This document shows, in pieces, positions 40,031-46,985 of a stretch of DNA of 64,000 nucleotides. The notes under the pieces were generated by a model. It searched no databases. It was not told the origin of the DNA and worked only from the letters and a program-made list of their open reading frames with translations. Every line of letters starts with the position of its first letter. Position 1 is the first letter of the stretch. Source of the DNA: Desulfosporosinus sp. Sb-LF (GTDB lineage Bacteria > Bacillota > Desulfitobacteriia > Desulfitobacteriales > Desulfitobacteriaceae); contig NZ_SPQR01000011.1 of assembly GCF_004766055.1 (NCBI RefSeq), positions 1 through 64,000 of the forward strand. Reading direction: 5' to 3'. The position numbers and the translations under genes are program-made.

Positions 40031-41059
40031 TTATCTTGAGCGCTTATCGTGCTGCTCCTCCATATCGTTGCCACGTTTCAGTTGACCTGTATTATCGTTT
40101 TTACCTTTGACCACAGTACCTGGTTTTTCTTCATGTGCTGAGTCGGTACTTTGTTTTGTTTCAGATGAATTTTGCTCGCCAGACTTTTTCTGAGCGGGTC
40201 GTTTGTCTTTAGTCTCATCTTCCTTGTGACCTGGCGTTGTCTTTACTTCCCGATTTGGCTGCTCCATCACGTTCCCTGTATCAATCATATTTCTATTATT
40301 TGTAAGCTCATCCTTCACAACTGGCACTTCCAAGAGGTTAGACCGTTCTGTGGGATTCTTTACGCTTTGCGATTGTATGGAAAGCCCAGCTTTTTCTGCG
40401 GTCTGCCAAAGAGCATATTCACCCATACTCAAACCTGCATTTTTTGCTTCTGCTACTTCTTGAGAAGTCAACTTGAAGAAAACGACTTGGAGACCTAAAT
40501 CCTTAGAAATTGCTACTTCATTCAAACTGTTTTGCAAAGCTTGGGCATCCACTGTGGCAAGATCATTTAGCTTCGAAGCTTTATCGTCGGATCCCTCGTT
40601 TAGCCCCAATATAATAGATTTGTGATCAGTATTTAAAAATCGCAGCTCAATGGCCCGGGTGACAATCTTGTTCATTGCGACTGCTAGGGGCTCCCCCTTA
40701 AGATTAACCCCTTCGAGTAACTGCACAGCGTCATTATTCTGAGCCTTGGTACTCACGATATGAGCTTCTTTATCCAATGCGATTTCTATACTAGGATTAA
40801 TATCAACCGAAAGCATAGCTACAGCCACCGGAGTTTGCCAGTAGGACCATCCTAGAGTCGACAGAATTGTGAAAAGGAATAGCGCCGCTATCGAGAGCAG
40901 AGCTCTATACGATCTCATTTTGTTTTCTAAGACAACCTCAATCTCTTCACCGACTTCAGCATTTATACGCGAACGTACCCGACGGAAGGCTCCGCTCGGA
41001 TCTAAAACAAGATAACTACCACCGTTTTTTTCTAAGACAATTGCTTTAGCTTTACTCAT
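40031..41059 (-). CDS. rsgI: Anti-sigma factor RsgI-like
   Basis: A 342-residue membrane protein. The N-terminal 50 residues (MSKAKAIVLEKNGGSYLVL, then FRRVRSRINAEVGEEIEV) form the cytoplasmic RsgI anti-sigma domain that holds SigI. A membrane segment lies at about 55-75. The next part, VAVAMLSVDINPSIEIAL, starts the conserved external RsgI domain. The C-terminal 100 residues are low-complexity, rich in Lys, Glu, Asp and Asn, with no carbohydrate-binding domain. Its start overlaps the sigI stop codon by four bases. Pairing with sigI makes the function secure; the signal it senses is not known. Confidence 0.88.
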   Translation of the reverse strand: MSKAKAIVLEKNGGSYLVLDPSGAFRRVRSRINAEVGEEIEVVLENKMRSYRALLSIAALFLFTILSTLGWSYWQTPVAVAMLSVDINPSIEIALDKEAHIVSTKAQNNDAVQLLEGVNLKGEPLAVAMNKIVTRAIELRFLNTDHKSIILGLNEGSDDKASKLNDLATVDAQALQNSLNEVAISKDLGLQVVFFKLTSQEVAEAKNAGLSMGEYALWQTAEKAGLSIQSQSVKNPTERSNLLEVPVVKDELTNNRNMIDTGNVMEQPNREVKTTPGHKEDETKDKRPAQKKSGEQNSSETKQSTDSAHEEKPGTVVKGKNDNTGQLKRGNDMEEQHDKRSR

Positions 41060-41769
41060 GAGATACGGCTCCTTCCCTGTGGGTATACATATTCGCGCAA
41101 ATAAATGTAGTCGTGACTACGAGCGATTAAAATGGCTACTGCAAGAATATATTTACGACCTCGCTCCAAAACCTTTAGATGGAGTCCTGTTTTTTCGGAT
41201 AATTGTTGCATAGGCAGCCTTTTTGTCCGTTCCACCTGGGACCAGAGGCTAGAATCATGAGCTAGTTCCCGGGCCGCTCGAAGCAAGCTTTCACGAGTAT
41301 CCCGATGTTTTGGGGAAACCTCCACCAAATTCGCAAAAGTTAGCCCCCATTTTGCTAATTCCTCAGAATAGTCCTGAACCTCCGCCGCCCGTTCTCGGTT
41401 CTGTTCTTGTTGATAGAACTCCGGTACGCTGATATAAGTCTCCACGACGAACCCCACTTCTTCTTCATCCAAAGGAAGGGAAGCAGGTTTATTATGCCGT
41501 CTAAAATAGTCGATCAACTGCCGCTTGATCAGGAGGCGCGCGTAAGCTAAAAAAGGCACTCCCTTATCCGGTTGGAATAGATTAAGCGCCTGGTTGAAAG
41601 CTAAGAAGGCCTCCGAAAGTTCCTCGTCCCTTCCCCACTCCAAACTTCGCTTCACCACTCGGGAAGCAACATACCGAATGAAGGGCTGAAAGTGTTCAAG
41701 AAAAGCTTCTCTATCTGAAGCATCAGTCTTTAGGCGTTCCCATGGCCAATTCTCTTCCCATTCAGGCAT
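41056..41769 (-). CDS. sigI: RNA polymerase sigma factor SigI
   Basis: A 237-residue alternative sigma factor of the SigI group. FLEHFQPFIRYVASRVVKR with DEELSEAFLAFNQAL and FQPDKGVPFLAYARLLIKRQ form region 2, including the -10-binding helix; the C-terminal helices (EKTGLHLKVLERGRKYILAV) replace a normal region 4, as in the family. ATG 41769 is chosen because GGGAGG lies upstream and the next upstream codon is GTA; the frame is open to 41829. It is co-transcribed with rsgI. SigI controls heat or wall stress genes in Bacillus and polysaccharide sensing in clostridia; which applies here is unclear. Confidence 0.88.
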   Translation of the reverse strand: MPEWEENWPWERLKTDASDREAFLEHFQPFIRYVASRVVKRSLEWGRDEELSEAFLAFNQALNLFQPDKGVPFLAYARLLIKRQLIDYFRRHNKPASLPLDEEEVGFVVETYISVPEFYQQEQNRERAAEVQDYSEELAKWGLTFANLVEVSPKHRDTRESLLRAARELAHDSSLWSQVERTKRLPMQQLSEKTGLHLKVLERGRKYILAVAILIARSHDYIYLREYVYPQGRSRIS

Positions 41770-41948
41770 TACTCTATTTCCCTCCCTGTCAGCATGCAAT
41801 TGTTTACTACCATGTCCACCTCCATTCATACTAATACTTTTGATGTCAGAAAGGAAGTCCTCAAGCCTTAGCTGCAGGACTCCCCATCCTTGAAATCTGA
41901 CTTACTGTTACCTAATTTACTATCTAAACTAATCTAGGGCGACCTGGA

Positions 41949-43184: not shown

Positions 43185-43376
43185 CTAATAATCATCCATT
43201 AATAGCCTATAATGACATTTAGACACACAAGTTGAACTGGACGAGCCGCATTCGAAACCCACTAATTCACCTTCTAGCTGCGAGACCCCTTCAACTCTTG
43301 TGCGAAAAAGCTTGATCTTAACGATCTTACTGACAACCGAACACGATTCTTGTCTTTCTTCTACGATTTGTTCCAA
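43185..43376 (-). CDS. Possible 63-residue cysteine-containing protein
   Basis: A frame starting TTG 43376, with GGGG seven bases upstream, and overlapping the end of the SbcC-like gene by 16 bases. The product ends GFECGSSSSTCVSKCHYRLL, where three cysteines, in a C-x6-C-x3-C pattern, could bind a metal. The first 40 residues are charged (MEQIVEERQESCSVV). It resembles no family I recognise. The terminator that follows it, rather than the larger gene, supports a real third gene in the operon. Confidence 0.45.
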   Translation of the reverse strand: MEQIVEERQESCSVVSKIVKIKLFRTRVEGVSQLEGELVGFECGSSSSTCVSKCHYRLLMDDY

Positions 43377-45832
43377 TCTAATGCCCCCAGTCTTTGCCAG
43401 CCAACGTTCCCCATCATCTCACTCAGCTTGGAATCCGACGTACATAGGACAACCTGTCTGGAAATGGAGAGTTTCTGAAGATAAGTTGTAACATCGTCCC
43501 AAAAACCTTGATCCTCATGAATTTCTCCTATTGAGAAAAATAACGGAACTTCAGCATAATTGCGCTGATTGCGCAGGGTTAACTGGACCATGGCCATACG
43601 ATAAGCGAAGTAATTCTTCTTCACATCTGCCATATCTCGTTCTGTCTTCATTTGCGCATGTAAAGGAGAAATCTGACTGAATATCCACTGTGATTCTTCT
43701 TCTAAGACCTTTCCGTACTCGGTTTGCCATTCCTTGAACGAAGCTTCTAATAAAGCCAGCGCATCGTCCAAGGCACAATTTAAGGTTTCATAAGCCTTCA
43801 ATCGCCCTTTAACTGCTTCGATTTTCCTCTCCAGAACAGACAATATTGGGAATCCTTGGTTGTACTGGAGTTGTCGTTCCGCCTTCACCCGTCGAAGACA
43901 AGTTTCCATTAGTTCGTTGTTCCAAGCTGCTAGTTCGGCTAACCTTTCTTCATCCGTAAAATAAGTTTCACGTTCCAACTCTGCCAAAGGTTCCAAACTT
44001 TTAGAAAGTCGATCCATAGTTCGATCTCCGAGTAATTCTGAAAATCTTCGAGAAGATTCCGCAAATTCCCTCTCCGTCTTATCTTTTTCACGCAGTTGGC
44101 TAGCAACACTCAAAACTGCCGCAAGGACTTCGTCTCTGTCTGTTGCAGATACCCCCCAATTCTCTAACTTTCCGTGCAGTTGTTCCGCACACCCTTGTAA
44201 CTTCGTTTCTTCCACTCGCTGTTGTTCAAGTGCTAGCTGCAGCTCATTATTCCAAAGGGCCAGTTGGTCGTCTTTTGCCCAGTAGTCGTTCCACCCGTTC
44301 AACCAAGCCGGGTAGTCAGCCGTATTAGTTGAGATAAACGCTTGTTTTAGGATTTTAGTGCGAGAATGAACGACCCCGAGTAGTTTCTCCCCACGCCTGA
44401 CGCTTTCCTGGAGCTTCTCTAAGTCTGTTCGCATTCTCTCGACCCTTTGCTGCTGGCCACGAAACTCCTTAATCTTCCTCTTGAATTCCTTGAAGTTTGA
44501 AACACGGTATTTTTGGTAGTATTTAGTAAGACGAAACACTAACCTTTTATTAATACTTGTCATGCCCAACAATTCCTGTAATGCAAAGTCGAAAAAGCCG
44601 CTGATTTTGGAGCTTTGCCACTGAGTTAAACGCCTTTCTCTATGCTCAATCTTAAGTTCGTCAGCCTCCGTAATTTTGGCAAAATCCTCTAAGTTCTGAA
44701 GAATCGCTAGTTCTTGCTTATAGGCTATTTCAACCTTTTGAAGTTCGCTGTTGGTTAAGGTTAGCCTGTTCAGTTCTTCTTGAGCCGTATGCATTTCTTC
44801 TTGCGCTCGGTGCAGGCGTTGATCCTCATCCTTCGATAAGCCCTGGTACCCAGATGTTTGCAAGGAATTTGTCACCTCTATAATTTTCCGTGCCCACGTT
44901 TGGGCTTTAGCGCCTATTCGTTCAACATTTTCTTGAAGACGTGCCCACTCCATGCAGCCTTCACGTAACCCTTCAATCACAGTCCAATCCACTTGCGACT
45001 CAGAGGTAAGCGCTTTCACATTTCCCTCTAATACCTGGAATCGTTCTTCCAAACGGGTCAGCTCACCTTGGAGCCGGCGTAATTCACGGTAGTCGGGGTT
45101 TTGACGAAGAATTGTCAAACGATCCTGTAATTTGGAAGTGGAACCAATTCTCGTAGCTAAAATTTTCTCTTTTTCGCGCAGATTCTTCATCTCAATCTGA
45201 AGCAATCGTTCTTCTTCCTGTCGGCGATGTGCTGCCTCCCACTCCCCTCGCAGTGCGTCATACTCTGCCTTAGTCTCAGCTATACTTTCTTTTTGGTCTT
45301 CCACTCTTCTTTGCGCCCCAGCTATTGATGCCAGCACTTTAGACAGGGAGAGCCCTTCATCCCCTCCTTGCCGCAGGTTGCGAATACGCCGAAAAAGAAG
45401 GTCCCTTTCTTCTCGTTCCGGCCATTCCACAAACCCGCCCTGGCAAAACGCCTGGAGGTTCAGCTGAAATAAATAGGCTCCCAGTGTCATCGATTCCGGC
45501 AGAGACACGCCCTGTCCAGTTTCATCCTCGATCACCAACGTTGAAAATCCAATCTGTCCATCATCGTCATGGAGAATAAATTCGCGACGTATTTGCAAGT
45601 GGGTGCTTTCGCTGGTCATCCAAACTTCAGCTAAACCCTTGCTACATTGAGCCTTAGAAACATCCAGTGGCTCTAGATCATTGAGATCGTATAAAAATCC
45701 CCGGACTAACTTGGCAAACATCTTTTGCTGACTCTTCTCCGCAACAAAGACCACACCTGGGCCAACCGGAAATCTCCAGTCAACATTTCCTAGCCCTGTT
45801 AGATTAGTGGTTCTGATCCGTTCAATCTTCAT
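43361..45832 (-). CDS. SbcC/YhaN-like coiled-coil protein with lost ATPase motifs
   Basis: An 823-residue protein laid out like YhaN/Rad50-type ATPases: N-terminal lobe (MKIERIRTTNLTGLGNVDWR), long coiled coils (about 170-700), C-terminal lobe. The P-loop position, GPNEAGKST in YhaN, reads VFVAEKSQQKM here. No LSGGT-type signature occurs near the C-terminus, and the Walker B site (PLILDD in the family) reads PLFFSIGEIHED. It therefore probably cannot hydrolyse ATP in the usual way. The start ATG 45832 overlaps the nuclease-like gene by 11 bases, so the two proteins are made together. An intact frame of this length argues that it is still selected. Confidence 0.8.
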   Translation of the reverse strand: MKIERIRTTNLTGLGNVDWRFPVGPGVVFVAEKSQQKMFAKLVRGFLYDLNDLEPLDVSKAQCSKGLAEVWMTSESTHLQIRREFILHDDDGQIGFSTLVIEDETGQGVSLPESMTLGAYLFQLNLQAFCQGGFVEWPEREERDLLFRRIRNLRQGGDEGLSLSKVLASIAGAQRRVEDQKESIAETKAEYDALRGEWEAAHRRQEEERLLQIEMKNLREKEKILATRIGSTSKLQDRLTILRQNPDYRELRRLQGELTRLEERFQVLEGNVKALTSESQVDWTVIEGLREGCMEWARLQENVERIGAKAQTWARKIIEVTNSLQTSGYQGLSKDEDQRLHRAQEEMHTAQEELNRLTLTNSELQKVEIAYKQELAILQNLEDFAKITEADELKIEHRERRLTQWQSSKISGFFDFALQELLGMTSINKRLVFRLTKYYQKYRVSNFKEFKRKIKEFRGQQQRVERMRTDLEKLQESVRRGEKLLGVVHSRTKILKQAFISTNTADYPAWLNGWNDYWAKDDQLALWNNELQLALEQQRVEETKLQGCAEQLHGKLENWGVSATDRDEVLAAVLSVASQLREKDKTEREFAESSRRFSELLGDRTMDRLSKSLEPLAELERETYFTDEERLAELAAWNNELMETCLRRVKAERQLQYNQGFPILSVLERKIEAVKGRLKAYETLNCALDDALALLEASFKEWQTEYGKVLEEESQWIFSQISPLHAQMKTERDMADVKKNYFAYRMAMVQLTLRNQRNYAEVPLFFSIGEIHEDQGFWDDVTTYLQKLSISRQVVLCTSDSKLSEMMGNVGWQRLGALDWNKS

Positions 45833-46985
45833 CGTCAACCCGTCCCTGCCCTAGTGCCGCCAACCCAATTTTTTGGACTAGCTCCCAGTGTTCGTGGTTC
45901 TTAGCACTCCCTGCAACTGCAAGGCATTCTTGTAGTTTCGCAATGAAAACTTGTGTTACATTAGGAATTCCATCCTTTTCTATATACACGGATTCTCTTG
46001 AAAGAACGACATCTACCCCAATTCCAGAGCCCATTGTCCCTACAAAGGGTACCACTTGGACGTAGCGAAATTCGTCTGCTAACTGTTTTCGAAGCAATAG
46101 GACCTCTCCATCCTCTTCATGTAGAGTTCCCATCAGCTTAATCCTAAACAAATCGTTTAGCCGTCCTTGTGGACTTGTTTCTGCCAATAACTGTGCAACA
46201 AACGTTTCCATGTCCGATTGAGACAGAACCTTTTCGTGATAGCGGCGTTGTCCCAGTTCCCGAAATTCGAGCTGGACTGATCCGTTCTCGATCTCTCCCA
46301 AAAGCACACCATGTGGGCCGCTCTCGTGAAAACTTCGGGCTTCAGGCGAACCACAATCAGCCCATAACGTCTCCCCGGCTCGCTGAATCCCACTCCAAAC
46401 TCCCTCATGACCCAAGGCCAGGTAATTCAAACCACTCAAAGCAATCTGTTCTGGAAGAATCTTGCTAAAGCGTTCCGAATTCTTCTCTGAGCTGACCTCG
46501 GCATGGAGAAGCATGAGCGAAATTGTTCCATCCATTTTCGCCCGAAAACCGTCAAGAAACGAACCCTCCTGACGATAGGCAGTCCATCCCGCTCCATATA
46601 CGATGACGTTTTGGGCAGGGAGTTTCACACTACTGATACCTCCGGAAAATATATGTACATTGCTTGGCCAGACGGTTAGACGATACGCGGACGTAATAAT
46701 CAGTGGGTCAGTTTCACCTGGAACGATGAAAATTCTCGTCCCCTCCACCTTCGCTAATACGCTAGCAACTCGCTCGACAGTCTCCTTACTAACATACTCC
46801 TGATCGAATAGATTTCCGACCAAAAACAGGAAATCAACGTTTTCCGACCGACAAAGAGCGATGGTTGCTTCAAAGGTCTGCCACAGATCTTGATTTCGAA
46901 GGGTCGCCCACGCCTCCAGCCCTTCCCAAGAGGGGCTGCCAAAACGAAATCCTGCACAATGCAAAAATCGAACGCACGAAGCCAT
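45822..46985 (-). CDS. SbcD/YhaO-like metallophosphoesterase fold with lost active site
   Basis: A 387-residue Mre11-type protein. The family pattern is recognisable but metal ligands are replaced: HxADxHxG becomes HCAGFRFG, GDLFD becomes GNLFD, GNHD becomes GETD, and GHxH becomes GHEG. Only the histidine in LLHAEV and that of GHEG remain. The rest (WPSNVHIFSGG and a C-terminal cap) is intact. It should fold like YhaO but lack nuclease activity. The ATG at 46985 lacks a strong ribosome site (GTGAG nine bases upstream). It is the first gene of the operon with the SbcC-like partner. The role is unknown; a structural or regulatory DNA-binding complex is a possible reading. Confidence 0.8.
   Translation of the reverse strand: MASCVRFLHCAGFRFGSPSWEGLEAWATLRNQDLWQTFEATIALCRSENVDFLFLVGNLFDQEYVSKETVERVASVLAKVEGTRIFIVPGETDPLIITSAYRLTVWPSNVHIFSGGISSVKLPAQNVIVYGAGWTAYRQEGSFLDGFRAKMDGTISLMLLHAEVSSEKNSERFSKILPEQIALSGLNYLALGHEGVWSGIQRAGETLWADCGSPEARSFHESGPHGVLLGEIENGSVQLEFRELGQRRYHEKVLSQSDMETFVAQLLAETSPQGRLNDLFRIKLMGTLHEEDGEVLLLRKQLADEFRYVQVVPFVGTMGSGIGVDVVLSRESVYIEKDGIPNVTQVFIAKLQECLAVAGSAKNHEHWELVQKIGLAALGQGRVDDED

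Follow-up and report, generated by a model that had tools for sequence, protein, structure and literature searches.

A gene pair derived from YhaO/YhaN in anaerobes around Desulfosporosinus, in which catalytic residues lost on both sides suggest a scaffold

Homology of the pair to YhaO/YhaN

The described systems closest to the gene pair reported here are YhaO/YhaN (SbcE) of Firmicutes, SbcD/SbcC and Mre11/Rad50. ATP-driven opening and cutting are the usual explanation of how Mre11-Rad50 works. In our comparison set, all eight two-metal ligands (P. furiosus Mre11 numbering) were found in 27 of 28 YhaO rows, and a GK[ST] P-loop was present in all 25 YhaN partners examined (25 of 28 were located by position and three were missed). 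One YhaO row, probably that of the split ORF L157, had six of the eight ligands. For the Mre11/Rad50 fusion of Mimivirus, Yoshida et al. 2011 (PMC3175470) describe almost all of the nuclease residues as well as motifs for ATP binding.

In the window (the whole 64,000-nucleotide stretch of Desulfosporosinus sp. Sb-LF DNA that was analysed), two long ORFs, here called D and C, were intact and overlapped by 17 bases as listed, as had been reported from the sequence alone:

45822 to 46985, minus strand: D, YhaO-derived pseudo-nuclease, 387 residues (hhalign to YhaO, AF2 model, VIA)
45846 to 45959, minus strand: two C-terminal helices of D, residues 343-380, predicted in the AF2 model
43361 to 45838, minus strand: C, YhaN-derived pseudo-ATPase coiled-coil protein, 825 residues from TTG (hhalign to YhaN, overlaps in relatives)
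44939 to 45463, minus strand: conserved coiled-coil segment 1 of C, residues 126-300 (conservation profile, fusions)
43739 to 44191, minus strand: conserved coiled-coil segment 2 of C, residues 550-700 (conservation profile, fusions)

The likelier start of C is the ATG at codon 3 (45832, giving 823 residues), not the listed TTG: M(R/K)IERI also opens the proteins of relatives, and the 11-base overlap with D that results is the one seen most often (16 of 31 pairs).

D aligned with YhaO at an hhalign probability of 100 (E 7.5e-62, 371 columns), indicating near full-length profile homology, and the fold predicted for it by AF2 (pLDDT 85.5) is that of Mre11 (VIA Z 25.5, rmsd 2.6, 282 residues aligned to 1ii7_A). 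The corresponding probability for C and YhaN was 99.5 (E 1e-22); the coiled coil may inflate this score, yet both ends align too. The profile homology and the predicted fold of D bear out the Mre11/Rad50-type origin that the original prediction gave both halves. It had left the choice between SbcD/SbcC and YhaO/YhaN kinship; the latter held, and SbcD/SbcC is not the nearest family. Both proteins fell below every Pfam and NCBIfam cut-off, the SbcD model TIGR00619 scoring 11.5 bits on D against a cut-off of 77.65, and no match to an SbcC model was found for C among the curated models. The alignment ranges of 7yzo_B and 7yzp_B extend to residues 379 and 382 of the D model, and W367, within the C-terminal helices, is invariant in 12 sequences. 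In the model these helices appear to sit where Mre11/SbcD has its Rad50-binding helices, and may share their role.

Catalytic motifs and constraint

The motif strings quoted previously (HCAGFRFG, GNLFD, GETD and GHEG in D; VFVAEKSQQKM and PLFFSIGEIHED in C) are correct, and the regions concerned are as follows:

46932 to 46961, minus strand: former motif I of D, HCAGFRFGSP, D8 replaced by G and H10 by R (ligand tally)
46803 to 46817, minus strand: former motif II, GNLFD, D49 replaced by N in the window protein (ligand tally)
46704 to 46721, minus strand: former motif III, PGETDP, N84 replaced by E and H85 by T (ligand tally)
46497 to 46511, minus strand: motif IV, LLHAE, H173 retained (ligand tally)
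46401 to 46412, minus strand: former motif V, GHEG, H206 retained and H208 replaced by G (ligand tally)
45719 to 45751, minus strand: former Walker A region of C, VFVAEKSQQKM (alignment and P-loop scan)
43574 to 43636, minus strand: former signature-motif region of C, about residues 735-755 (alignment with two YhaN)
43511 to 43546, minus strand: former Walker B region of C, PLFFSIGEIHED (alignment and motif scan)

The ligand tally covered 43 degenerate D rows, with one gap per column and fragments entered as gaps. D8, N84, H85 and H208 were each retained in 0/43 and H10 in 1/43, while D49 was retained in 26/43, H173 in 35/43 and H206 in 31/43. The motif-I Asp and the Asn-His pair were gone from all 42 readable rows (43 rows in all), and the 41 complete rows kept between zero and four of the eight ligands, so that none holds the two-metal set. 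Among 35 long C proteins, a search that also covered displaced sites found no GxxxxGK[ST] P-loop, and the C-end alignment lacked the signature motif and the Walker B Asp-Glu of YhaN. A loose pattern scan of these 35 proteins gave Walker-B-like strings in one and signature-like strings in three, the positions of the strings being unchecked. Comparison of the sequences thus supports catalytic loss in both proteins well, and this loss is clade-wide; the earlier statement that both active sites were erased goes too far in that some ligands stay (H173 and H206 in most rows, and often D49).

Both genes are still under selection, as had been argued from their integrity: dN/dS lay far below 1, at 0.14-0.28 in 26 non-independent pairs of D and at 0.15-0.29 in 14 pairs of C. 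In unfused C, the N-lobe gave omega values of 0.12-0.19 in seven pairs, indicating purifying selection, and the C-lobe (736-800) had a mean identity of 0.50, above the 0.46-0.48 of coil segment 561-700; the heads therefore matter in unfused members, though they are absent from the mini-fusions described below. Thirty-eight of the 47 invariant columns of C (12 sequences) lie between residues 126 and 735, compared with 0/16 between residues 77 and 793 of L067 for YhaN (11 more divergent sequences). A hydrophobic mid-coil stretch, which to our knowledge is not a published YhaN criterion, occurred in 25/25 YhaN (19-residue mean at least 1.78) and in none of the 35 long C proteins, whose maximum was 1.71, near the N-terminus.

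Distribution, fusions and neighbourhood

Degenerate D was found in 41 of the 82 genomes searched within the class. In a set of 60 genomes that includes its own, 40 had D matches, two of them canonical YhaO, leaving 38/60 degenerate; D stood without C in three, namely in the two genomes with a canonical YhaO and in G005, whose contig ends there. After rows shorter than 240 residues had been dropped, 67 were kept for the tree, and all 40 degenerate rows among them fell into one clade with branch support of 100/100. Orthologues with the same substitutions thus occur across the clade, which argues against sequencing error. D and C are adjacent in the order of the YhaO/YhaN operon. Their genes overlap in 30/31 unfused pairs, the odd one out being L043, whose D was recovered as a fragment.

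Eight members are single ORFs. Six are full fusions without the start of C or without the entire N-terminal ATPase lobe, the N-lobe being absent in 5/6; the other two are mini-fusions, consisting largely of the pseudo-nuclease domain plus the two coiled-coil segments that are best conserved, and offer a minimal unit that is directly expressible and testable. The differing junctions (C residue 34 versus 127-139) indicate at least two fusion events. On the tree the fusion label changes four times, at least three by starred branches, the number of events being uncertain because two rows labelled unfused, L131 and L135, are fragments at contig ends. The model of a fused protein had a pTM of 0.38, with weak Rad50-type matches (TM-score 0.17-0.25).

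MutY adjoins the pair in 5/36 loci (two lineages, two arrangements), and Fpg lies 1.1-2.5 kb upstream in 9/36. The comparison of these genes with YhaO loci is biased, as the queries came from degenerate loci and the YhaO loci from other taxa, and the linkage may reflect chance or inherited synteny; many neighbours are not repair genes. SOS control was set aside: a perfect match to the LexA core occurred in 3/49 upstream regions (duplicates included; 0.7% expected per shuffled region), all in the close relatives L117, L118 and L121, about 217 bases upstream, and was not relied on. None of the 49 regions had a convincing LexA box. Nor did a defence system (PADLOC E 0.019 for D, nothing for C) or a mobile element find support: phage records yielded nothing for C and viral contigs nothing for A1, and the 130 plasmid records matched by D gave partial matches, all below 80% coverage (motifs uninspected). 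The 63-residue cysteine ORF, once suggested as a partner, was dropped, since its one good relative, in L136 (63% over 62 residues), is not behind C; beyond it, no match was better than E 1.9 in the loci examined, own loci excluded.

Proposed function and comparison with known systems

That both partners have lost catalytic residues, yet are selected together and sometimes fused, suggests a scaffold rather than an enzyme. On balance we lean towards D and C being an ATP-independent, nuclease-free scaffold pair derived from YhaO/YhaN and still functional. Homology, the Mre11 fold, the ligand and P-loop tallies, purifying selection, pairing, the single clade and the fusions favour this reading, as do the invariant columns of C, placed unlike those of YhaN, and the MutY and Fpg neighbours; the constrained N- and C-lobes of unfused C and the D rows with a possible metal weaken it.

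A function of the pair outside DNA metabolism, as a scaffold in, for example, envelope or sporulation biology, is unlikely. In 9/36 loci a lipoprotein gene (Germane domain in the one member checked) is found 17-103 bases upstream, and an M23/G5/LysM protein (domains from the member tested) lies 134-266 bases downstream in 8/36, but such neighbours are limited to Desulfosporosinus loci, other genera having different ones, and no clear transmembrane stretch was seen in C. It is similarly improbable that D keeps a remodelled single-metal site (D49, acidic 84, H173, H206), either as a hydrolase with another substrate or with a structural metal. Position 84 is E or D in 29/43 rows and all four possible ligands are present in 15/41 complete rows, which qualifies the predicted loss of nuclease catalysis; however, D8, H85 and H208 are absent from all readable rows and H10 from all but one, the window protein has N at 49, and 3/41 complete rows have none of the eight ligands. 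We also doubt that the pair regulates or antagonises the cell's own SbcCD through mixed complexes or occupied DNA ends. Canonical SbcD and SbcC, which the original prediction had proposed to look for, are present in the same genome, and SbcD is above cut-off in 53/60 relatives, but it is common with or without the pair, so that co-occurrence says little; moreover, the two pairs lie on separate contigs (D/C on C11, SbcCD on C13), and the ancestry of D and C is that of YhaO/YhaN, not SbcCD. Gene decay or a sequencing artefact is very improbable: G037 has C as two separate ORFs, but the gene is open in all the other genomes whose contigs hold it whole, and the substitutions are shared, with dN/dS of 0.14-0.29.

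Under the scaffold reading, catalysis would have disappeared from a YhaO-type nuclease and a YhaN-type ATPase in an ancestor belonging to the order of Desulfosporosinus, a single loss being the simplest account. D would still dimerise, its C-terminal helices gripping the base of the C coiled coil, and the work, at any rate in the mini-fusions, would fall to the pseudo-nuclease domain and to the coil beside the heads. The complex might bind DNA or repair proteins, serving as a clamp or platform with neither cutting nor ATP cycling. The tethering or regulatory function put forward in the original prediction is likewise a proposed one. We consider it probable that the whole Mre11-Rad50-type complex is a pseudoenzyme on both sides, its work having moved to the pseudo-nuclease surface and the coiled-coil neck, so that some lineages fused the genes and shed one or both ATPase lobes. 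Given the ancestry and some neighbours, the most likely setting is the repair of DNA with oxidised bases or breaks, although the missing LexA box and the many non-repair neighbours weaken it. A lineage with the architecture but neither activity would, if true, split the structural from the catalytic role, and within the open-access literature searched, the earlier statement that no doubly inactive version has been described stands.

The pair resembles YhaO/YhaN in near full-length profile homology, gene order, adjacency, an Mre11-type fold and a coiled-coil partner. It differs in having lost most of the ligands that YhaO keeps and the P-loop that YhaN keeps, and C differs further in lacking the hydrophobic mid-coil stretch. 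With SbcD/SbcC and Mre11/Rad50 it shares the fold of D and a two-gene organization in which a pair of head lobes flanks a coiled coil, whereas most nuclease ligands and the ATPase motifs are lost and both proteins score far below the family cut-offs. As in the Mre11/Rad50 fusions treated in PMC3175470, a nuclease-like domain lies N-terminal to a Rad50-like part and fusion is recurrent; unlike the Mimivirus protein as described there, the D-C fusions lack the catalytic motifs, and five of the six full fusions lack the N-lobe.

Descent of the pair and loss of catalytic residues

The pair consists of D, a YhaO-derived pseudo-nuclease, and C, a YhaN-derived Rad50-like pseudo-ATPase coiled-coil protein, whose coding sequences overlap in the window:

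45822-46985, minus strand: D, 387 aa
43361-45838, minus strand: C, 825 aa

C probably starts at the ATG at 45832, because a start there would give the 11-base overlap that is commonest among relatives (16 of 31 pairs). Neither protein reached the cut-off in Pfam and NCBIfam searches, and the nearest named records carrying relatives are from Desulfosporosinus. In profile comparisons, D matched YhaO at E 7.5e-62 and C matched YhaN at E 1e-22; the coiled coil may help the second value, but both ends of C also align with YhaN. When D was modelled with AlphaFold2 (pLDDT 85.5), its best structural match was Mre11 (Foldseek E 9.3e-14; VIA Z 25.5, rmsd 2.6, 282 residues); general phosphoesterases scored lower (VIA Z up to 19.8), and alignments with two E. 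coli SbcD chains extended to the C-terminal helices of the model.

The original prediction held that both active sites had been erased. For D, this stood for D8, N84, H85 and H208, which are gone in the degenerate rows (relatives of D with lost ligands), but not for H173, H206 and D49, which are often kept.

Mre11 metal-site ligands kept in degenerate D and canonical YhaO rows
Ligand: degenerate; YhaO
D8: 0/43; 28/28
H10: 1/43; 28/28
D49: 26/43; 28/28
N84: 0/43; 28/28
H85: 0/43; 28/28
H173: 35/43; 28/28
H206: 31/43; 27/28
H208: 0/43; 27/28

Among the 41 complete degenerate rows, none of the eight ligands was kept in 3, one in 5, two in 15, three in 17 and four in 1. All 38 full rows have G at the former D8 position, whereas positions 84, 85 and 208 vary more than average (column entropy percentiles 57th, 69th and 71st). 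For C, the prediction was borne out at the P-loop, with GxxxxGK[ST] in 0 of 35 long C proteins. Whether the same genome also has a canonical SbcCD pair was answered by contig C13, where SbcD (441 aa, with all four motif blocks looked for) adjoins SbcC (1204 aa, P-loop GSTGSGKS); no YhaN was found in this genome above the limit of an AAA_27 search that scored 42 of the 67 first-look candidates.

Selection and distribution

Both genes are still selected, as originally claimed: dN/dS for D was 0.14-0.28 across 26 pairs, and for C it was 0.15-0.29 across 14 pairs. In seven genome pairs, the values were 0.15-0.28 for D, 0.15-0.26 for C, 0.08-0.16 for SbcD and 0.10-0.20 for SbcC; D and C are constrained, somewhat less than SbcCD.

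Of 60 genomes, including the one that holds the window, 40 had a match to D and 37 a match to C; a class-level search matched D in 43 of 82. Because two of these 43 (G038 and G040) encode a canonical YhaO adjoining a P-loop-bearing YhaN, degenerate D occurs in 41 of the 82 class genomes searched, in seven genera and two families. A wider scan of 84,980 species (one genome each), which was seeded with two peptide patterns and may therefore overlook members, gave 56 loci: 30 form the degenerate group (L109-L137 and L155; 40-72% identity), several of them in genomes already counted in the earlier searches, and the remaining 26 all have GNHD. All 40 degenerate rows in the tree lay on one side of one branch (support 100/100, midpoint root).

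Fusions and gene neighbourhood

Six members are single ORFs of 1061-1165 aa (G020, G055, G056, G057, G059 and G072, the last on the same contig as L155). The C match begins at residue 34, within the former P-loop region, in G020 (D. metallidurans) and at residue 127-139 in the five other full fusions, where the N-terminal lobe is therefore gone. The fusion label requires four changes on the tree; Mre11/Rad50 fusions are already known, according to an excerpt of one paper (PMC3175470). For one fused relative, the predicted model (pLDDT 76.8, pTM 0.38) matched an Mre11-Rad50-Nbs1 entry at E 4.5e-12, yet with TM-scores of just 0.17-0.25; the matched chains should be Rad50, judged by length. Against Mre11 chains, its TM-score reached 0.69.

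Mini-fusions of 563 and 571 aa in two MAGs (G048 and G052) match D 1-246/248, C 166/184-298/299 and C 550/551-680, and are 83% identical with a dN/dS of 0.265. The G048 contig stops 24 bases past the ORF; on the G052 contig a further 178 bases follow, and they contain no C-lobe coding sequence. The coil segments kept are the best conserved parts of the C coil (mean identity 0.54-0.56 for 126-270 and 0.46-0.48 for 561-700, compared with 0.36-0.43 for 271-560), but the C-lobe (736-800), absent from the mini-fusions, is conserved at 0.50 in other members. Separately, C of G037 is broken up into one ORF of 413 aa and another of 340 aa, beside an intact D (L069:5150-7415).

The gene context of the pair differs between loci. 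In 5 of 36 loci, MutY overlaps the pair or is at most 81 bases from it, on the downstream side in one lineage and on the upstream side in a second; loci with a MutY-like gene directly adjoining the pair are L133 (= L063), L137, L061, L069 and L070. At 9 of 36 loci, Fpg is located 1.1-2.5 kb upstream. Pfam domains confirmed two MutY and one Fpg, the remainder being assigned by similarity, and neither was found at 28 canonical YhaO loci at E 1e-15. This neighbourhood is suggestive only. One paper places B. pumilus yhaO, yhaN and yhaM in the LexA/SOS group and reports that they were raised after peroxide (PMC3896406), and another terms SbcE (YhaN) a double-strand-break repair protein (PMC4205851). 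In the window, a 63-aa cysteine-bearing ORF (43185-43376; 63% identical relative at L136:4304-4489) overlaps the end of C, and genes for a SigI sigma factor and an RsgI-like anti-sigma factor (40031-41829) lie downstream of the pair.

Reading of the pair and comparison with YhaN

The pair has lost catalytic residues and kept its predicted fold, its pairing and its selection, and it is very probably non-catalytic in the Mre11/Rad50 sense. D may bind the base of the C coil and may dimerise, and the complex would bind DNA or protein without ATP; we lean slightly towards a DNA-repair scaffold. The prediction had known of no described doubly inactive version, and we likewise found no report of such an Mre11/Rad50-type pair in searches of an open-access library.

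In all 25 YhaN partners found (from L067, L068 and L138-L164), GK[ST] occurs close to the N-terminus, and 21 of them match the strict form GxNxxGK[ST]. All 25 also carry a strongly hydrophobic stretch in mid-coil, possibly a membrane hairpin at the coil apex, whereas the C proteins are without one; the ranges are close (YhaN from 1.78, C up to 1.71), and the 1.71 of C sits near its N-terminus.
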